From the NCBI GenBank assembly GCA_024644015.1, contig JAHELV010000025.1, positions 1 through 51,644 on the forward strand: a stretch of 51,644 nt of DNA, written 5' to 3'. This DNA comes from Nitriliruptorales bacterium (GTDB lineage Bacteria > Actinomycetota > Nitriliruptoria > Euzebyales > JAHELV01). Below the pieces are notes generated by a model. That model was not told the DNA's origin. It saw only the letters and a program-made list of their open reading frames with translations, and made no database searches. Numbering within the stretch: position 1 is the stretch's first letter; every line of letters begins with the position of its first letter. Positions 1,529-12,997 of the stretch are shown here, piece after piece. The position numbers and the translations under genes are program-made.

Positions 1529-2020
1529 TCATCTCAGCCCGTCGACCACGCGGTCGAACTGCTTCGCCGTCAGGTTCCACGCCACCAGGGCGTGGGCGTC
1601 GCACGGCGGTTCGTCGGGTTCACGCCAGATCGCAGCCCGTGTGTCATCCGGTCGAACGAACGTTCCTGCGAGCATGTCGGCATCGACGCCGCGCACGGCC
1701 GCCTCGCCGACCTTCTGCAAATCGTCGTACGCTTCGAGCACGTCGTCGAGGTAGCCGCCCGAGACGAGCATGAAGCCCCGCTCGTCGGTGCCGAACGTGC
1801 TCTCGACTCCGTACGTCGACTCCGACAGCGGCACCAGCTCGCGGTCAGCCAACTCCAGCGTCGGCCGCGTGTGTGTGGTTTCTGGCTCCGGGCAGGTCAC
1901 CCTGGCCGCCTGCGTTGGCGTGACGTCCGTCGTGCTCGTCGTGTCCGCCGATTGCGTTGGCTGCGAGCATGCGGCGAGCGTGAACACCGACAGCGCAACC
2001 GACAGTGCCCGCCAGCTCAT
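1529..2020 (-). CDS. Small secreted lipoprotein of unknown function
   Basis: This 163-residue protein begins with a lipoprotein signal peptide. The lipobox is LAAC, with the predicted lipidated cysteine at about residue 18, followed by a Ser/Thr/Asp-rich linker. The remainder has no family I recognise. It is mildly acidic and contains a second Cys pair (one in VTCPEP, one in EPPCDAH) that could form a disulfide outside the cell. Its ATG overlaps the stop codon of the GH99-like gene by 4 bp (ATGA), so it is the last cistron of the overlapping operon and is probably translationally coupled. The context suggests an outer-face partner of the glycan enzymes encoded upstream. That role is inference only. 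Confidence 0.8.
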   Translation of the reverse strand: MSWRALSVALSVFTLAACSQPTQSADTTSTTDVTPTQAARVTCPEPETTHTRPTLELADRELVPLSESTYGVESTFGTDERGFMLVSGGYLDDVLEAYDDLQKVGEAAVRGVDADMLAGTFVRPDDTRAAIWREPDEPPCDAHALVAWNLTAKQFDRVVDGLR

Positions 2021-3132
2021 GTCTGCGGTACCCGCGACGAGCGGTTGCGGCGCGCGACGACGATCAGGCTGACCACGAGCAGCACCGCCATCAGGCCCAG
2101 CGCGGTGAGCTGCGCCAACCCCTGCACCGGTGCGGTGCCCGGTGCGCTCGAGTCCATGTTCGCCGCCTCGAGCGCGGGGGGCAGCGGCGATTGCGTCAGC
2201 CCGGCGACGATCCGCAGATATTCGTTGCCGTGTGCTCTGGAGGGCTCGATGTGGGTGTTCTCGCTGAACTCGTTCCAGCTGATGACGCCCAACGCCGACG
2301 GCGACGAGGCCATCGCGCCCTCCCAGGTCTCGCGCAGGACCGCACCGTCGGCTCGATCGACGAACGCCGTACCACCCAACAGACGCGCGTCATAGCCCGG
2401 CGACACAGGCGCGATCCACAGGTCCCCCCGCGCATGCACCGCGCGACCCATCGCGATCAACTTCTCCGGGTACGCCGGGTGGCGCATCGGATTGACCGAC
2501 GACCAGTAGTACAACTCGCCATCGACGTGCTGCGCGACCCGCTCGTAGCCGTCGACGGACTTCTCGGTGGCCAGGAACAACAGCCGATCCCGGCGTGGTC
2601 CGGAGACCGCGCGCAGGTCAGCCGTCGAGTACTGCTCGGTACCGGTCCACACGATCACCGGTGCGCCGAACAGATCGAAGGCGCGGCTGTCGCCGAACTG
2701 CGCGACGAACATGTCGAGATCGTCGCCGATCCTCGCCACGGGCAGCGGATCACGGTTGAAGTCCAGGGCCTGGTAGGTGATCGCCAGCTTGAAGTCAAGC
2801 TCTTCGGCGAGGGCGACGAGCGTCGCCAGACGCGCGTTCAGTTGCTCGGTGCTCTTCCAGCTGACGATGAAGCCGTCGATGCCGGCGCTCTTGGCCATCA
2901 TGATGTGTTCACGCGCGACGCTCTCGAGGTCGCTGGTGTAGCGCCCGATGGCCGGGTAGTCCGACTTGGCGCGGTTCCACGACGATGCCTGGTACCAGAT
3001 GTAGTAGTGCGCGAGCACAGGCGGATCCGTCGGATCGGGCAGCCTCTTCGGGCCCGCGCCGATCGACAGGAGCGCAGCAGCGATCAGGGTGGCGGTGAGC
3101 GCCCGCCGCGATCGCGCAGCAGCGTGTCTCAT
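2017..3132 (-). CDS. Exported, membrane-anchored GH99/GH71-like glycoside hydrolase domain protein
   Basis: The protein has 371 residues. An N-terminal export signal (basic start RSRRALTATLIAAALLS) is followed by a TIM-barrel-type domain with features of the GH99-like family. These are the HYYIWYQ motif after the signal, a GIDGFIVSWKS strand, and near the C terminus the signature ISWNEFSENTHIEPS. Members of these families act as endo-alpha-mannosidases/mannanases or alpha-1,3-glucanases. The acidic WNEFSE motif is compatible with catalysis, but substrate cannot be deduced. A C-terminal membrane segment (LTALGLMAVLLVVSLIVV) followed by arginines would anchor it with the domain outside. The start at 3132 is chosen because it overlaps the previous stop by 4 bp. 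A much longer open frame upstream merely shadows the neighbouring gene. Confidence 0.85.
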   Translation of the reverse strand: MRHAAARSRRALTATLIAAALLSIGAGPKRLPDPTDPPVLAHYYIWYQASSWNRAKSDYPAIGRYTSDLESVAREHIMMAKSAGIDGFIVSWKSTEQLNARLATLVALAEELDFKLAITYQALDFNRDPLPVARIGDDLDMFVAQFGDSRAFDLFGAPVIVWTGTEQYSTADLRAVSGPRRDRLLFLATEKSVDGYERVAQHVDGELYYWSSVNPMRHPAYPEKLIAMGRAVHARGDLWIAPVSPGYDARLLGGTAFVDRADGAVLRETWEGAMASSPSALGVISWNEFSENTHIEPSRAHGNEYLRIVAGLTQSPLPPALEAANMDSSAPGTAPVQGLAQLTALGLMAVLLVVSLIVVARRNRSSRVPQT

Positions 3133-4124
3133 CGTGCCACCTCCTCGTTGACGAGTTGCTGACCGGGTGCGGCGGCCGAGGCGGGCCGGGCACGCTGACG
3201 CCGCCGCAGGACCACCCCGATCAGCAGCAGCCCGACCGCGAACGCGGCCAGGGACGCGAAGAAGAGCCCGACGTCGAGCCAACTGTAGAACGCCAGATCC
3301 ATGTCCTGCCTGCGTGACACGGCAACCGGGCGCTCCAGCTCCAGGCCGGACCCCAGCACGGTCACGACGTAGTCCCCCCGCGGCAGGTTCTCCAACGTGA
3401 CCTTGCCTCCGCCGTCGATCGGAACCTCCTCGACCTCTCCGTTGGGGTGCTCGACCCGCAGGGCGTCTCCCCTCGGGACGCCGAAGAATGCGTCCTTCAC
3501 GGCGAAGGCCGCCGTGTAGAACAGCAACTCGATCGAGAAATGCTTGTCGTTTGCTGGGAAGAAGCGCTGCTGGGAGCGGTTGACGACGCTTGCACCCGCT
3601 ACCTTGGCGTCCTCGACTGTCCAGAGGATGTCCTTGACGGTGAGCTCCTGGAAGTTGCGGACGACGCGCTGAGACAGCAACCACTTCGCTTCCGTGGGTT
3701 CGACCTCGAAGCTGTCGCCCAGGCTGCTCTTCAGACGCACGCTGTCCACATCGGTGTTCGCGACGTCGCCGCCCTCGAGGTCGCGGAAGCCCAGGGTGAC
3801 GCGCCGCTCGGTGTTCCACGTCACGGTCACCTGACCGCCGACGACGTAGATCCGGCCAACCTCGGCGCGACGGCGCTTGCCGAGCTTCACGTCGGTGTCG
3901 AGCACCCGCAACCGGTCGGCGTCGATTCTGGGGTCGCTCGTGGTGATTCGGGCGCTGCCCTGCTCGTCGGTCGTGTAGACCACGCCGTCGTACTGCAACC
4001 GGACCCCCGACACCGGCGGAAGGGTCTCGACCACGTGGCCGTCCACCGCCGCCACGGCCGGCACAGCAGTGGTTGGCCACACCGTCAGCGCGGCCAGCAG
4101 CAACACCAGTACCCGGCGTTTCAT
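3129..4124 (-). CDS. Exported single-pass membrane protein, unknown function
   Basis: The product has 331 residues, with a Sec signal peptide (LVLLLAALTVWP, cleavage near AVA), an extracytoplasmic region of about 240 residues and a C-terminal membrane helix (LFFASLAAFAVGLLLIGVVL) followed by a basic tail. The exported part is beta-rich. A region near residues 215-265 (GEVEEVPIDGGGKVTLENLP, then GDYVVTVLG) resembles a carboxypeptidase-regulatory or prealbumin-like fold often found in surface proteins. I do not recognise a named family. It overlaps both neighbours by ATGA (4121-4124 and 3129-3132). The topology matches the phosphoesterase and GH99-like proteins around it: signal, ectodomain, C-terminal helix. 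The three may form one membrane-attached complex, which is inference. Confidence 0.82.
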   Translation of the reverse strand: MKRRVLVLLLAALTVWPTTAVPAVAAVDGHVVETLPPVSGVRLQYDGVVYTTDEQGSARITTSDPRIDADRLRVLDTDVKLGKRRRAEVGRIYVVGGQVTVTWNTERRVTLGFRDLEGGDVANTDVDSVRLKSSLGDSFEVEPTEAKWLLSQRVVRNFQELTVKDILWTVEDAKVAGASVVNRSQQRFFPANDKHFSIELLFYTAAFAVKDAFFGVPRGDALRVEHPNGEVEEVPIDGGGKVTLENLPRGDYVVTVLGSGLELERPVAVSRRQDMDLAFYSWLDVGLFFASLAAFAVGLLLIGVVLRRRQRARPASAAAPGQQLVNEEVAR

Positions 4125-5521
4125 CGCCGCCGCCCCCGTCTGCGGCGGACGCGGCCGGTGGTCGCCCTGGCGAAGCCGACGAGCACTGCCGCGAGCCCCA
4201 AGCTGCCGCCGTACAGGGCGTAGATCATCTCGCTGCGCGACGGTTCGATCACGGTCTCTTCGCGGTGTGCGGGAAGCATGACAGGCGCGCGTGGCCGCTG
4301 GTCGAAGTCGAACGCCGTCGTGATGTTGTTGGCTTCGGCGTCGCGTTTCGCGAGGGGCTCCAGCCCCCAGTTCTCTTCGATGAACTTCAGCATGGACGTG
4401 AAATCCAGTTGCGTGCTATCGACGTGGCCACGCCGCGCGTACGGACTCACCAGGAGAGCCGGCGCGCGGAAGCCGTAGCCGAAGCGGTCCACCTGCGGGG
4501 GCGCGACGTGGTCGTACCATCCACCCCAGTCGTCGTACGTCCACATTAACGCCGACGACTCCCAGTACTCACTGCGCATCAGGGCGGTCAGCAGGCTCCG
4601 CACGAAGGACTGGCCGGCCTGGATGCTGCCCGGTGGATGCTCACTCGCTCCCGACGGCACCATGTAGGAGACGGCGGGCAGGCTCCCGCTGATCAGGTCC
4701 TCGTAGAACTCCTCGAGCGGCACGATCCGCGAGTTGAGTTCCTCGTTGTCGAGGAAGCGGTTGTAGTTGAGGATCGGCGCCCACACGATCTGCGCGCCGC
4801 GATCACCGCGCCCCAGGTTGCGGAACGTGATGTTGGGATCGTAGTTCTCGATGTAGAACTTCCACGACACGTCCGCCTCGTGCAGCCGGTCGAAGATCGT
4901 CGGCACGTGGTCGAAACCCTCCGGCAGCAACGAGTCCGCCTTGGTGTTGCCTGGGTGGCCGGCCACCCAGTAGAAGTGGTTGCGCACGCTGCCGCCGTGC
5001 GCGGACGTGAAGAAGTTGTCGAACAGCACGAAGTTGTCGGCGAGGTTCCAGTAGTACGGCAGGTCCTCGTCGTCGTAGTAACCCACCGGCAGATCCCCGA
5101 CCGCCGGTGTGTCGTCGAACACCTTCAGAAACCCGTCCATCGCGCCGTCGTTGAACTGCCGCTGGAACACCTCGTCGTTGTGGCCGAGGTCGAGTACGGC
5201 CTTCCCACCGATCTTGAAGGGCTCGGCACAGCCCGCCGCCGGATCCTTCGGATCCCGAGGCACACAGGCGTCCTCCGGGAACCCGTCCGCGCCGGGATAG
5301 GTCCCGAAGTAGTTGTCGAACGTGTGGTTCTCCTGCATCAGCGAGATGAAGTGCTTCACCGGCGTCGTGGTGTCACCGTCCCGCTCTCCCGGTTCGTTGC
5401 CCACACGTGCCTCGTCGGACGCCGTCGGTTCCGTGGTCGCCTCGGCGGCCGCCGCAGGTGTCCACACCGCGGTGACGGCGAGGAGGACGGCCGCGAACAG
5501 CAGCGACCGGTGACGCGTCAT
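4121..5521 (-). CDS. Exported membrane-anchored phosphoesterase (phospholipase C / acid phosphatase AcpA superfamily)
   Basis: The protein has 466 residues. After a Sec signal peptide (LLFAAVLLAVTAVWTPAAAA), the sequence carries the hallmarks of the phosphoesterase family that includes bacterial PLC and AcpA. These are QENHTFDNYFGTYPG at about residues 64-78, the FFTSAHGGSVRNH segment, SEHPPGSIQAGQSFV, YDDWGGWYDHVAPP, and VSPYARRGHVDSTQLDFTSM. The acidic and histidine residues in these blocks form the metal/phospho-intermediate site in the family. A C-terminal helix (IYALYGGSLGLAAVLVGFA) and an Arg-rich tail anchor it. The likely reaction is hydrolysis of a phosphodiester or phosphomonoester outside the membrane. 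The substrate is unknown, but in this operon a polyprenyl-phosphate or phosphoglycan is plausible. It overlaps GT39 (5518-5521) and the next gene by ATGA. Confidence 0.9.
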   Translation of the reverse strand: MTRHRSLLFAAVLLAVTAVWTPAAAAEATTEPTASDEARVGNEPGERDGDTTTPVKHFISLMQENHTFDNYFGTYPGADGFPEDACVPRDPKDPAAGCAEPFKIGGKAVLDLGHNDEVFQRQFNDGAMDGFLKVFDDTPAVGDLPVGYYDDEDLPYYWNLADNFVLFDNFFTSAHGGSVRNHFYWVAGHPGNTKADSLLPEGFDHVPTIFDRLHEADVSWKFYIENYDPNITFRNLGRGDRGAQIVWAPILNYNRFLDNEELNSRIVPLEEFYEDLISGSLPAVSYMVPSGASEHPPGSIQAGQSFVRSLLTALMRSEYWESSALMWTYDDWGGWYDHVAPPQVDRFGYGFRAPALLVSPYARRGHVDSTQLDFTSMLKFIEENWGLEPLAKRDAEANNITTAFDFDQRPRAPVMLPAHREETVIEPSRSEMIYALYGGSLGLAAVLVGFARATTGRVRRRRGRRR

Positions 5522-7242
5522 GAGCGCACCTCGTAGATGACGATCACCGGCTGCTTCCGCGGGCCGTCCGGACCGTTGGTCGTCACCGACTGGGTGTGCA
5601 CGGGGCGGCCGTTGAAGCGCTCGGCGTACTGCAGGAGCCGCTGGGAGAAGAAGGGGCTGCGGCCGGCGGAGAAGGCGTCCCAGACGATGTACTGCAGATC
5701 GTTGTTGCGCAGCCGCAGATCAGGGTTGTGGATCGGCTCGTACACCGGGTTGCGGTGCAGCGGGTTCGGGCTGACCGACAGCCCGTAGACCTTGCGGTGC
5801 CCGTAGAACTGAATGATGTTGGCCATCGACGGGCCGAGCGCGAGCATCTCCGCTCCCTCGGGGACGTTCTCCGCAACCCAGTGCCCTGCCTCTCTGCCTC
5901 CGGGGACACCGCCGGAACCGGCGAGGAACGTGGCGCCAGCGGAGGCCGGCTGGATCCGGATCCAACTCGGAATCAGCACGCTGACCGCGACAACCGCGAC
6001 GGCGACGATCCGCACGATGCCAACTGGGATACGCCGGCCGACCGTGGCCGGGCGCACCTTGACCACGGTCGACTGCGGCGAATAGCCGTTCGTCTGGCTG
6101 CGGTCATGCTGGCCGTGGTCCGCCGAGGACGCCGCACCGCGGCGCAACGCGTTCGGCCGCAGCCGCGACACGAGCGGCTCGAGGCGCGCCCACAAGGGCT
6201 GCAGACGCTGCCACAGCGGCCGCAGTCCGATGGCGAGCGGCCGCTGTGGCAGCGTCGCGAGTGTGCGTCCCGCGAGCACGGCGATCGGCGGGCCGGCGTA
6301 GAGCAGGTACTGGAACCCCTTGGTGGGCCACAGCTGGAAGAACATCGCCGGGACGACGATCCATGACAGCAGCAGGAGCTCCCGCCACGATCGCTGCGTC
6401 CGCAGTCGCCACAGGCCGTAGGCTGCCGCCGCGAGCACCAGCAGGCCGATCGCGGTCGGGACGACGGCGGGATAGAACAGCCACGTGTGGTTGGCGCGGC
6501 GGAACAGCTGCCACGTCAGGAAGCTGTGTCCCGTCGACGAGCGCCCCGACATCGAGATGGTGATCGGGTAGATCACGATGATCGACACGAAGAACAAGCT
6601 CGAGATCACCAGGTCGCGTATCCGCACCCTGATGGTCGGGGTGATCGCGAAGTACGCGTACACGCCCCCGAGCAGGAGGATGCTCGGCTCCTTCGCGAGC
6701 ACCGTCAGCCCGAGCATCGCCCCCGCCGCGTACAGCCAGACGGGCCGTTGGCTCAGCGAGTACCGGACGAGCAGATACAGCGTCGTTGTCGCGAAGAACG
6801 TCATGGGACCGTCGAGCAGCACCTGCCGTGTCACAACCACGTGATACGGCATCACCGCGATGATCAGTGCGGCGATCAGTCCGGCATTTCGGCCGTACAG
6901 CCGCGCGCCGACCGCGCCGGTCATGGCTACCGTCGCGACACCGAACGCCGCGGACAGCAGCCGGCCGATCAGCGGGGAGACACCCCACTGATACGGAATC
7001 GACACAATTGACTGGAACAGCAGCGGGTGCGCTCGAAAGACCGGGAAGTATGGAAGGAACTCCCGGTTACCTGCGATCGAGGCGCCCTGGCCGGCGTAGA
7101 CCGCCTCGTCGCTGTTGAACCCGAGCGCGTCGAGGTTCCAGACCCGCAGCAGCACTGCGAGCACGGCGATGAGGACCAGCGCGCCGATCCACGCGAAGTC
7201 GCGGCGACCAGCGTCGAGGACGGACAAGCGCCCGCCACGCAT
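5518..7242 (-). CDS. GT39-family polytopic membrane glycosyltransferase (ArnT/PMT-like)
   Basis: The protein has 574 residues. A first helix (FAWIGALVLIAVLAVLLRVW) is followed by the loop motif LGFNSDEAVYAGQG, where the acidic D-E pair matches the catalytic position of GT-C enzymes that use polyprenyl-phosphate sugars. About ten further hydrophobic helices follow. A soluble insert near residues 375-425 (NALRRGAASSADHGQHDRSQ) precedes a last helix and an extracytoplasmic C-terminal domain. The family transfers a sugar from a lipid carrier to protein, lipid or glycan outside the membrane. The ATG at 7242 is preferred because GGGAG lies 9 bases upstream. It leaves 119 bp after the GtrA-fusion gene. 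The GT2 and GtrA genes just upstream would supply and flip the lipid-linked sugar donor. Confidence 0.88.
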   Translation of the reverse strand: MRGGRLSVLDAGRRDFAWIGALVLIAVLAVLLRVWNLDALGFNSDEAVYAGQGASIAGNREFLPYFPVFRAHPLLFQSIVSIPYQWGVSPLIGRLLSAAFGVATVAMTGAVGARLYGRNAGLIAALIIAVMPYHVVVTRQVLLDGPMTFFATTTLYLLVRYSLSQRPVWLYAAGAMLGLTVLAKEPSILLLGGVYAYFAITPTIRVRIRDLVISSLFFVSIIVIYPITISMSGRSSTGHSFLTWQLFRRANHTWLFYPAVVPTAIGLLVLAAAAYGLWRLRTQRSWRELLLLSWIVVPAMFFQLWPTKGFQYLLYAGPPIAVLAGRTLATLPQRPLAIGLRPLWQRLQPLWARLEPLVSRLRPNALRRGAASSADHGQHDRSQTNGYSPQSTVVKVRPATVGRRIPVGIVRIVAVAVVAVSVLIPSWIRIQPASAGATFLAGSGGVPGGREAGHWVAENVPEGAEMLALGPSMANIIQFYGHRKVYGLSVSPNPLHRNPVYEPIHNPDLRLRNNDLQYIVWDAFSAGRSPFFSQRLLQYAERFNGRPVHTQSVTTNGPDGPRKQPVIVIYEVRS

Positions 7243-7361: not shown

Positions 7362-8975
7362 TCAGACTCGATCTCCCGCGCCAGCCCGCGCCAGGGTAGT
7401 GGCGTCGGGCTCGGTCGTCATCCCGCGTCGCCGCGCGCGCTTCGGAAGCGCGGACGGGAACCCGTCCTGATCGTTGACCACGACGACCTCGTCCGGGTCG
7501 GGTTGCAGCGTTGCGACGATGGTGGGCAGTGTCTCGAACCAGTTGCGGTCCTTCGTCCGTAGCCGTGTGCACGCGATGTTCAGCAGCGCCTCACTGCGGA
7601 TCGCCGCCTCGATCGGCTTGTCGCCGTTCGTCAGGCCGGGGGCGATCGACGGATACGGCGGGAAGCCGTAGGCGTCCTCGGTGTTCGCCGCCAAGATCTC
7701 AGATGCCTGTTCGTGCGTGAGGGACTCCTGCAAGTCGTGGTCGCCACGCTCGATCAGAACGAGGTGTCGGGCACGCTGTGCGCTGACGAGCACCGCGTCG
7801 GGAACGAGATCACGGATGAAGTACTTGGGCGGTGGAATCAGCCACTGGACGAAGGCACTCATCGACGCGACCGGCAGGAACCCCGTGGCCAGCGCCATGC
7901 CGACGCGCCGACCGGTTTTGGAGTGCAGGCGACTCTGCACCTGTAGGTACGCGCGCCTCGTCCTCGGCAGCGGTGCAGCGGACGCCGCCGCAAGCGTGTG
8001 CGCCGAGACGGTCAGTGGCTTTGGGTAGCCCAGGACCGCGCCGTCCGACGCCAGAATCGTCATGTCGTCCGAGATGAACTTCGCGCCGTACTCGCGCATC
8101 GCGCGCAGGCACGTCGTCGTCTTGCCCGTGTCCGTCTCGGCGGTGATGAGCACGCCCTGATCGCCGATGCGCAGGCAGGCGGCGTGGGCGAGCACGTGGC
8201 CCTTGCGCACGATGACCCACCGGAGCACAGGCTCGACGATGTTGGTGTAGAGCACGTGCGGGGACCACCGCAGCACCGGACTCGCCTGGATCTTGACCGG
8301 CAGATCACCCATCTGGATGTCGACCGCAAACCCCAGCGCGCCCAGTTGCTCCACGTAGCGTGCATGCCCGTAGCCGGTCTCGACCTGTGGTCGCAGCCGC
8401 AGTCCCCCGAAGCCACGCGCCCGCAGCTCCAGCACGATGTCCGGACTCTCACCGTCGAGGCTCGGCACCGCGAACGGCGCGAGTTCCGGCAGCTTGCCGT
8501 CCGATGCGATCCGTACGAGGCCGTGCACGTCGTAGTAATGGTGACGGGCAGCCTGGCGCGTCGCCTCACGCCAGATCCAGACGTCGGACACCGCGAACCG
8601 CCCAAGGGTGGCGATTGCGATGCTGACCAGGTTCGCGATCAGATAGTGCATGCCGAGCCCGTCGGTGAACACCACCAACAGAGGCACGCGCAACAGCAAC
8701 CAGGCGTTGCTGAGCGCCATGAACAGCAGATACCGGCGCACTCGTCCCGGCCGCTCAGCCCAGAAGACCCAGCGGTCGGCCAGCGCGAAGTTCCATGAAG
8801 ATGACACTTGCGTCGCGAGAACAGCCGACGTGGCGTAGTGAAGTGCGGAGAAGTCGGTGAACAACCAGAGCGCAAGCTCATTGATTGCGATTCCGGTGAG
8901 ACCAACTGCGCCAAACCGCAAGAACCTCTGCGCTCGCGGAGAGCTGGCGAGAACGCGTGTCGTAGCAAGATTCAT
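7362..8975 (-). CDS. GtrA-family membrane domain fused to an HprK-like P-loop domain
   Basis: The protein has 537 residues. Residues about 18-137 form a classic GtrA module with four helices: FLRFGAVGLTGIAINELALW, then SSSWNFALADRWVFWAE, then two more. GtrA proteins help move polyprenyl-phosphate sugars across the membrane. The cytoplasmic remainder resembles HPr-kinase-like ATPases. VLAHAACLRIGDQGVLIT leads into the Walker-A-like AETDTGKTT at 279-287, and then KFISDDMTIL holds the paired Asp typical of this fold. The first Walker-A glycine is replaced by Ala. No HPr or PTS gene is near. The start has AGGAG 7 bases upstream. I infer a nucleotide-dependent control or kinase function attached to the flippase. 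Two separate genes through sequencing error is unlikely, since the frame is continuous and coding throughout. Confidence 0.85.
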   Translation of the reverse strand: MNLATTRVLASSPRAQRFLRFGAVGLTGIAINELALWLFTDFSALHYATSAVLATQVSSSWNFALADRWVFWAERPGRVRRYLLFMALSNAWLLLRVPLLVVFTDGLGMHYLIANLVSIAIATLGRFAVSDVWIWREATRQAARHHYYDVHGLVRIASDGKLPELAPFAVPSLDGESPDIVLELRARGFGGLRLRPQVETGYGHARYVEQLGALGFAVDIQMGDLPVKIQASPVLRWSPHVLYTNIVEPVLRWVIVRKGHVLAHAACLRIGDQGVLITAETDTGKTTTCLRAMREYGAKFISDDMTILASDGAVLGYPKPLTVSAHTLAAASAAPLPRTRRAYLQVQSRLHSKTGRRVGMALATGFLPVASMSAFVQWLIPPPKYFIRDLVPDAVLVSAQRARHLVLIERGDHDLQESLTHEQASEILAANTEDAYGFPPYPSIAPGLTNGDKPIEAAIRSEALLNIACTRLRTKDRNWFETLPTIVATLQPDPDEVVVVNDQDGFPSALPKRARRRGMTTEPDATTLARAGAGDRV

Positions 8976-9017: not shown

Positions 9018-9830
9018 TCACGCACTCTTGGCCGCCACTCCCGCAGGGGCTCGCTCAATAGCGATATCAGGTGCATGAGGCTGCGCCCACAGGGCCAGCG
9101 CGAGGCACCGCCGCGCGGCCTCGACAGCCGTATCTCTTGACATCTTCGAACCGCCAACGGTCCGTTCGCGAAATGTGATCGGAACTTCGCGGATCGTCAT
9201 GTCGTTGCGCGTGACGAGGTATGTCCCTTCGACCTGGAAGCCGTAGCCCTCGCACTGTGCGCCGTCGACAATCAACTGCGCCGCCGGCCGCCGATAGACA
9301 CGAAATCCCGCGGTGACGTCACGCTGCCTCAGTCGCAGCACACGGCGTGCGAACGTGTTCGCGCTCCATGACAAGGCCTTGCGACGCAGCGGCCAGCCAA
9401 CGGTGCGCCCCCCGGGCACGTACCTCGAGCCGACGGCGAGGTCCACGCCCTGCGAAACCTCGTCGTAGAGCTGTGGAACCGCCATTGGGTCGTGACTCAG
9501 ATCGGCGTCCATCTCGCCGATGTACTCGTAGCTGTGGGTCAGCCCCCAGCGGAATCCGGCACGATACGCCGACCCCAACCCGGTCGGGCGGTCACGCTGC
9601 AACAGGTGCAGCCACGGGCGGTCGGCGCCGAGTGCCGTGACGGCCGTCGCGGTGCCGTCGGGTGAGTTGTCGTCGACCACGAGCACGTCGAAGCACAGGT
9701 TCTTACGCACATCTTCCAATTGCTCGACGAGCACTGGGATGTTACCAATCTCGTTGTAGGTTGGAACAACCATCAGCAGTCGACAATCGTCCATCTGAAC
9801 TGGGATGGAACTCGCTGTTCGTAGACCCAT
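9018..9830 (-). CDS. GT2 polyprenol monophosphomannose synthase (DPM1/Ppm1-like)
   Basis: The protein has 270 residues and a soluble GT-A fold. It has VVPTYNEIGNIPVLVEQL at the N terminus, the nucleotide-binding VVDDNSPDGTA, then the metal-binding DADLSHDP and GSRYVPGG. Toward the end come GFRVYRR and EGYGFQVE, and the region ends with ITFRERTVGGSKMS. This pattern is that of enzymes making dolichyl/polyprenyl-phosphate mannose from GDP-mannose. There is no C-terminal membrane domain, and the following GtrA protein supplies one. The ATG at 9830 has GAGG 9 bases upstream. A TTG at 9845 and an ATG at 9794 are less likely. It is the first gene of the surface-glycan operon and would make the lipid-linked donor used by GT39. 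The sugar could be glucose instead of mannose. Confidence 0.88.
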   Translation of the reverse strand: MGLRTASSIPVQMDDCRLLMVVPTYNEIGNIPVLVEQLEDVRKNLCFDVLVVDDNSPDGTATAVTALGADRPWLHLLQRDRPTGLGSAYRAGFRWGLTHSYEYIGEMDADLSHDPMAVPQLYDEVSQGVDLAVGSRYVPGGRTVGWPLRRKALSWSANTFARRVLRLRQRDVTAGFRVYRRPAAQLIVDGAQCEGYGFQVEGTYLVTRNDMTIREVPITFRERTVGGSKMSRDTAVEAARRCLALALWAQPHAPDIAIERAPAGVAAKSA

Positions 9831-9916
9831 GAATTCGTACCTCAATCTTCGTCGAACTCGAATGAGGGCATAGCGCCTAGACGACAGGCCGACCTGCCTT
9901 CATGAATATGCATGGC

Positions 9917-12105: not shown

Positions 12106-12133
12106 CGGATGTTCCTTGTGTCGAGGGTCCCGA

Positions 12134-12997
12134 ATGGGTGATCGTGCAGATCTGCCCGGGCAGAGGGCATGGCGATCCATGCTACGCGGCTTCGGGCCGC
12201 TGATGCGCTCGGCACACGCCGAGCCGTCGGTCGCCGTCACAGCGGCGGCTTCGGCCCTCGCCGTCGGCGCCGGCCTGGGTCCGCGCAGCGCGCTGGTGGC
12301 GCTGGCCGTCGGCGCCGGCCAGCTGTCGATCGGTTGGAGCAACGACTGGCTGGATCGAGATCGCGACGCTGCCAGCCGGCGCACCGACAAGCCATTGGCG
12401 CAGCGCGAGATCGCCCCTCGCGCGGTCATGACGGCCGCATTCGTCGCGCTGCTCGTGTGTGTAGTCGCGTCGGTCGCGCTCGGGCCGGCGTCTGCGGTCG
12501 TCCACCTGATCGCCGTGTCTGCGGGCTGGTGGTACAACGTCCAGGCCAAACACACCGCATACAGCGTCGTGCCGTGGGCGCTGGCGTTCGGGTTGCTGCC
12601 GGCGGTGGTGACGCTGGCGCGGCCGCTCGTACGGTGGCCGGCTTGGTGGCTCCTCGTGGCCGGCGGGCTGCTCGGCGCGGGCGCGCACTTCGCGAACGCG
12701 TTGCCGGACATCGAAGAGGATCGCCACACAGGCGTGGACGGTCTCCCCCAGCGGCTCGGCCGGCGCCGCTCAGTGACGGCGGCGACCGTGCTCGTCGCCG
12801 GTGGCGTGGCCCTGGTCGCACTCGGGACACGGCCGAGACCGGCGGGCGTCGCGATCGGCGTTGTCGGCGCCGTGGGCCTGCTGTGGGTCGGCTTCACGTC
12901 GTGGCGCGGCCGGGACCGCCTGGCGTTCCGCGGCATCGTCGCCCTGCTGCTGCTGCTCGCCGTCGGCGTGGTCACGAGCGGCGCCGCCCTGTTCTGA
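12134..12997 (+). CDS. UbiA-family prenyltransferase
   Basis: The protein has 287 residues and about eight helices. The first conserved aspartate motif is GWSNDWLDRDRDAASRRTDK, matching the NDxxDxxxD signature with the following R-x-x-KP element (KPLAQREI). The second Asp motif is ALPDIEEDRHTG. UbiA enzymes attach polyprenyl chains to aromatic or other acceptors, as in menaquinone synthesis. The acceptor here cannot be told, and no menaquinone gene is close. The start at 12134 has GAGGG 6 bases upstream. An ATG at 12179, nearer the first helix, is an alternative. It is divergent from aspS and convergent with the hydrolase gene at 13444. Confidence 0.9.
   Translation: MGDRADLPGQRAWRSMLRGFGPLMRSAHAEPSVAVTAAASALAVGAGLGPRSALVALAVGAGQLSIGWSNDWLDRDRDAASRRTDKPLAQREIAPRAVMTAAFVALLVCVVASVALGPASAVVHLIAVSAGWWYNVQAKHTAYSVVPWALAFGLLPAVVTLARPLVRWPAWWLLVAGGLLGAGAHFANALPDIEEDRHTGVDGLPQRLGRRRSVTAATVLVAGGVALVALGTRPRPAGVAIGVVGAVGLLWVGFTSWRGRDRLAFRGIVALLLLLAVGVVTSGAALF

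Follow-up and report, generated by a model that had tools for sequence, protein, structure and literature searches.

Genes at the locus

The window, by which we mean the whole 51,644-nucleotide stretch analysed here (contig JAHELV010000025.1 of a Nitriliruptorales bacterium), carries a minus-strand run of genes for a predicted glycosyltransferase system, followed by exported, membrane-anchored proteins and two further candidate surface proteins (Table 1). The original prediction described five minus-strand open reading frames (ORFs), from GT39 to the lipoprotein, joined by four 4-bp ATGA junctions, and all of these were present when the window was re-read. Operons often contain ATGA overlaps, so the junctions of a single genome prove little, and the comparison across loci reported below carries more of the argument.

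Table 1. Features of the cassette and its flank in the window.
Feature	Position	Strand	Basis
GT2, polyprenyl-phosphate sugar (DPM-type) synthase, predicted	9018..9845	-	PF00535, DAD motif
Fusion of GtrA flippase domain and HprK-like P-loop kinase domain, predicted	7362..8975	-	PF04138; HprK matches weak
GT39/PMT-type GT-C glycosyltransferase, predicted	5518..7242	-	PMT_2, PMT above cut-off
Phosphoesterase (PE), AcpA/PLC superfamily, predicted type I membrane-anchored	4121..5521	-	PF04185
331-aa ectoprotein, predicted beta-sandwich (CnaB-like) and C-terminal membrane helix	3129..4124	-	Model, fold search
GH99/GH71-like glycoside hydrolase, predicted membrane-anchored	2017..3132	-	PF16317, PF03659 above cut-off
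Small lipoprotein, putative accessory	1529..2020	-	Lipobox LAAC
Secreted CBM96 and right-handed beta-helix protein, cut by contig end	1..1359	-	Pfam

The overlaps are thus as described, and the unit proposed earlier is partly supported, with limits that have to be redrawn: judged by its homologues, the unit is a predicted six-gene cassette, from GT2 to GH99, with the lipoprotein as a putative lineage-specific accessory. The latter has no Pfam or NCBIfam family match above cut-off, and L029, from Blastococcus, is the single other cassette locus in which a homologue immediately follows GH99. Beyond it, the truncated protein at the contig end matches CBM96 (5.8e-31) and Beta_helix (3.2e-16), and its beta-helix homologues adjoin the cassette in L024, L025, L029 and L065.

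Phosphatase-like secreted proteins, overlooked in the original prediction, are often found close by: secreted metallophosphoesterase proteins, many of which also have fn3 and CBM96 domains, are neighbours of the cassette in 13 loci, and the edge of L027 holds part of a further one. Together with the HprK-like domain predicted inside the cell, these neighbours make phosphate handling a recurring theme. In the deep-branching locus L059, the cassette has an additional PF04185 phosphoesterase and an additional GH99-like protein beside it (L059:3994-7176). Elsewhere in the window, a few kilobases upstream of GT2, an ORF on the plus strand (12116-12997) resembles a UbiA-like prenyltransferase when judged by eye and does not belong to the conserved gene set. 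An anti-phage defence role was also considered, and PADLOC gave no match.

Recurrence of the cassette across genomes

With a GT39 alignment as query, a scan across contigs of 84,980 species recovered 18 loci, which belong to Actinomycetota, Chloroflexota and Thermomicrobiota; a single-sequence scan of genome contigs with the ectoprotein gave no match. The carriers are Micromonospora, Blastococcus, Thermomicrobium, Thermalbibacter, Anaerolineae and Dehalococcoidia, plus one contig binned as Saccharibacteria, which groups with Blastococcus and may be misbinned. The order GT39-PE-ectoprotein-GH99 holds wherever a locus is long enough to include all four genes, and further loci taken from whole genomes have the same order. 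The original prediction had staked its claim on the co-occurrence of these genes next to GT39, and they do not scatter, keeping one order in loci of three phyla. GT39 and PE overlap by 4 bp in 20/20 loci, the PE/ectoprotein overlap is 4 bp in 17 of 19 (1 bp in the remaining two), and that between ectoprotein and GH99 is 4 bp in all but one of 11 unfused cases.

Two kinds of gene fusion occur. GT2, GtrA and the HprK-like domain form one ORF in most other loci, GT2 being separate in the window and in L059, L061 and L063; these donor-side genes precede GT39 in most loci, with GtrA/HprK downstream and on the opposite strand in both Blastococcus loci of the scan. The ectoprotein and GH99 are one polypeptide in six Micromonosporaceae loci (five scan loci and a second copy in genome G425), encoded by an ORF without internal stops, in which two hydrophobic segments flank a basic stretch. 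The association of the genes, their order, overlaps and fusions, and the conserved active sites described below, are direct observations.

Among 241 Chloroflexota genomes, the ectoprotein was found in nine and the GT39 subfamily in nine, with both in eight and neither in 231 (Fisher p = 3e-13, a value that is only indicative as the genomes are related). In the one ectoprotein-only genome (G668) the cassette is cut inside PE by a contig end, and in the one GT39-only genome (G549) GT39 is truncated where the contig starts. The four core proteins have correlated pairwise distances (0.88-0.94), which is consistent with inheritance as a unit and is also predicted by shared ancestry alone. Of 396 genomes from the window's phylum, the window's genome alone carries GT39. 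The ectoprotein is present in four more, all from one other family and all lacking GT39. Three loci of that family were examined: none holds the cassette, and two have a long extension joined to the ectoprotein. Searches with ectoprotein, GT39 and GH99 gave no match in any of the 60 nearest relatives, among them three congeners, suggesting that the cassette is mobile or often lost.

Additional copies were seen in several places. The window's own genome has a second, partial cassette (L003; G000:C160, 1-4225), comprising GT39-PE-ectoprotein on a short contig, with an identity to the window copy from about 40% (ectoprotein) to 65% (PE, GT39). Solo second copies of the ectoprotein lie away from the cassette in two Thermomicrobia loci (L064:9657-10217 and L066:3189-3767). 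The extended proteins of the other actinobacterial family (L008:173-3661 and L009:7973-9796), found without the cassette, join the ectoprotein domain to a long C-terminal extension, which in L008 is repetitive and coiled-coil-like.

Predicted activities of the encoded proteins

All assignments of cassette proteins to families are made from sequence and models, and the chemistry of each enzyme is the one suggested by its homologues. On the donor side, GT2 matches Pfam PF00535 (7e-24) and has DPM-type NCBIfam neighbours, and the GtrA domain matches PF04138 (3.8e-19) above cut-off. A GtrA fusion was already noted in the original prediction, which rightly saw the fused domain and missed its partner, an HprK-like P-loop domain. 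The partner scores 15.6 bits against PF07475 (HPr kinase), below the cut-off of 33.3; NCBIfam matches are also weak, and a sequence search matched no solved structure. Its P-loop (TDTGKT, residue 281) and an SDD motif (residue 302) are invariant in 10/10 aligned homologues.

GT39 matches both PMT_2 (2.1e-16) and PMT (2.2e-11) above the Pfam cut-offs. In the alignment its DE motif (D45 E46) is invariant, the LLD of RQVLLDGP is conserved, and the C-terminal region is very conserved. The PMT/PMT_2 scores and the DE motif fit a predicted GT-C transferase with an extracytoplasmic active site.

PE belongs by sequence to the PF04185 superfamily (6.2e-71), and its nearest solved structure is AcpA (2d1g, 1.3e-51). 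The catalytic set of the phospholipase C NPC4 comprises E23, N24, D76, H79, T158, H264, D299 and E300 (PMC9837106), to which E64, N65, D111, H114, S178, H295, D330 and D331 of PE correspond by motif; these eight positions are conserved in 17/18 or 18/18 rows of the alignment. In one Blastococcus locus, PE (L032:2515-3873) has lost three of the eight, E64, D111 and H114, so this locus may do without its activity. PE falls short of two narrower models, with 186.9 bits against a curated cut-off of 580 for phosphocholine phospholipase C (TIGR03396) and 175.1 against 362.75 bits for Burkholderia-type acid phosphatase (TIGR03397). Compared with the AcpA acid phosphatases and NPC4 phospholipases C, with which it has the domain and catalytic residues in common, the cassette PE falls outside both specific NCBIfam models and has a predicted type I membrane anchor.

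The 331-aa ectoprotein has no Pfam or NCBIfam match above cut-off; its sequence matched no solved structure, and no viral relatives were found. The window protein is modelled as all-beta followed by a membrane helix (pLDDT 86.2, pTM 0.69; 15 sequences). In fold searches, full-length TM-scores were low, and the best matches were pilin and CnaB domains, with a single-domain TM-score (target-normalised) of 0.61-0.65 to L. plantarum CnaB2. On this model the ectoprotein would have the beta-sandwich fold of CnaB domain proteins. An isopeptide-forming role (Lys-Asn/Asp cross-link) was rejected as unlikely because the alignment contains no invariant lysine. The cassette defines a new ectoprotein family.

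The GH99-like protein exceeds the gathering thresholds of both PF16317 (GH99; 46.5 bits against 33) and PF03659 (GH71; 47.9 against 34), and the WbsX model was matched too. Its nearest solved structure is 4acy (1.5e-17), and GH99 is the first match of the fused ectoprotein-GH99 model in a fold search; the pTM of that model is 0.43, and its relative domain placement was not used. The near-invariant segment WNEFSENTHIEPS aligns with NEWHEGTQIE of BtGH99, and the candidate catalytic glutamates E288 and E291 fall on the NExxE pair (NEWHE). The catalytic residues of human MANEA, E404 and E407, are identical in bacterial GH99 (PMC11025385). Loss of the GH99 catalytic pocket, which would have spoken against the original prediction, was not seen: the GH99 and PE active sites are intact. 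The endo-alpha-mannosidases/mannanases BtGH99, BxGH99 and MANEA are the best sequence and fold matches and have the same Glu pair; unlike them, the cassette protein is predicted to be membrane-anchored, adjoins a glycosyltransferase gene and also matches GH71 and WbsX.

PE, ectoprotein and GH99 had been credited with one common design, and each is indeed a predicted exported protein with a hydrophobic C-terminal segment and a basic tail. The generalisation does not extend to early-branching GH99 homologues, which appear to use an N-terminal helix or a lipobox as anchor, not a C-terminal helix.

Possible functions and relation to known systems

We consider it probable that the locus is one functional unit, in which a three-component extracytoplasmic glycosylation core is coupled to a membrane-anchored processing module. 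In the cytoplasm, GT2 would charge polyprenyl phosphate with a hexose, probably mannose, the GtrA domain would flip the lipid-linked sugar, and GT39, as a GT-C enzyme, would move the sugar onto an acceptor outside the membrane. On the outer face, PE and the ectoprotein-GH99 pair would then process the product of GT39, by phosphate removal and by cutting or re-joining an alpha-glycan, while in the cytoplasm the HprK-like domain may phosphorylate a substrate or gate donor supply. We infer the common product, the identity of the sugar, the order of action and the role of the kinase from this arrangement. The reading of one unit draws on the constant order, the conserved 4-bp overlaps and the Chloroflexota co-occurrence; on the GT2-GtrA-HprK and ectoprotein-GH99 fusions; on the conserved active sites; and on the correlated core distances and the metallophosphoesterase proteins near the cassette. 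Against it stand the ectoprotein domains without a cassette in one actinobacterial family, the solo second copies in some Thermomicrobia, the sub-threshold HprK similarity and the catalytic losses in the L032 PE. The cassette looks self-contained, as it did in the original prediction.

The recurrence of phosphate handling, in the metallophosphoesterase neighbours and the HprK-like domain, also suggests a more specific version, in which the lipid-linked sugar, or its precursor, would be phosphorylated in the cell by the HprK-like domain, then flipped and transferred outside in phosphorylated form; the outer PE would dephosphorylate it, so that ectoprotein-GH99 could extend or re-join the glycan. 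If this were true, a kinase inside and a phosphatase outside would form a directional ratchet, a phosphate-gated scheme that we regard as distinctly unlikely.

Among readings that depart from a common glycan pathway, a dedicated protein O-glycosylation system, in which GT39 decorates the co-encoded surface proteins (PE, ectoprotein, GH99 and the fn3/CBM96 proteins), is the most serious, though we think it rather unlikely; in this reading the decorated proteins would themselves be a scavenging or envelope-degrading set, and the glycan would be a decoration and not the substrate of GH99. It could account for the GT39/PMT Pfam matches, the PMT matches in the PDB and the several secreted multi-domain proteins adjoining the cassette, but the conserved set showed no nutrient importer, and the ectoprotein-GH99 fusion and tight GT39 overlaps suggest a common pathway more than a group of mere substrates, although they are compatible with O-glycosylation too. 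For want of an importer in that set, a nutrient-uptake (PUL-like) function was given less weight. Remodelling of a lipid-anchored glycan, with a phospholipase C-type PE releasing or re-anchoring a GT39-made lipoglycan and GH99 cutting its glycan part, appears more doubtful still: PE lies in the PLC/AcpA superfamily, conserves the NPC4 catalytic set and would be anchored in the membrane beside its would-be substrate, whereas it scores below the NCBIfam cut-offs for phosphocholine PLC and acid phosphatase and has a Ser nucleophile as in AcpA, a monoesterase. Least credible, and very improbable, is that the genes are chance neighbours or a hitch-hiking operon without shared function; the absence of the cassette from all 60 nearest relatives searched, congeners included, would fit, but the comparative data contradict it, since the genes keep their order in three phyla, retain 4-bp overlaps and have become fused in two different ways.

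The favoured reading of one functional unit carries consequences for several groups of bacteria. The cassette recurs in actinobacteria, Chloroflexota and Thermomicrobiota with a fixed order, conserved overlaps and fusions of two kinds, which implies a shared surface product in organisms whose envelopes are poorly known, and the cultivated carriers (Micromonospora, Thermomicrobium, Thermalbibacter and Blastococcus strains) make the function directly testable. No description of the cassette was found in open-access papers, as the original prediction had supposed, and none of the systems found in that literature includes the processing module, the HprK fusion or the ectoprotein.

Three-component extracytoplasmic glycosylation combines a polyprenyl-phosphate sugar synthase, a dedicated flippase and a GT-C transferase acting outside (PMC11127046, PMC7389260), and the cassette core has predicted counterparts of each in GT2, GtrA and GT39. 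The same three parts are found in the Gtr-type systems of Shigella and Salmonella (GtrA/GtrB/Gtr, with a GtrA-family flippase), in those of Listeria and Bacillus (GtlA or CsbB, the GtrA-family flippase GtcA, and GtlB or YfhO), and in the pentofuranose systems with their dedicated flippase (PMC11127046, PMC7389260). A dedicated phosphatase around the lipid-linked sugar donor, as proposed for the cassette, has a parallel in polyprenyl-phosphate pentofuranose synthesis (Rv3806c/Rv3807c; C. youngae ORF15; PMC11127046). The C. youngae phosphatase is a HAD-superfamily PRP domain that acts before the flip (PMC11127046), whereas the cassette candidate is a PF04185 enzyme predicted to be exported, and the kinase-like domain would lie inside the cell. 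Unlike the three-component systems, the cassette has GT2 and GtrA fused to the HprK-like domain in most loci, a GT-C related to GT39/PMT whose C-terminal region is highly conserved, and, following that GT-C, three predicted membrane-anchored processing proteins with overlapping starts. The cassette would extend the known three-component systems by a kinase-like domain and by a module of exported hydrolase and phosphoesterase.
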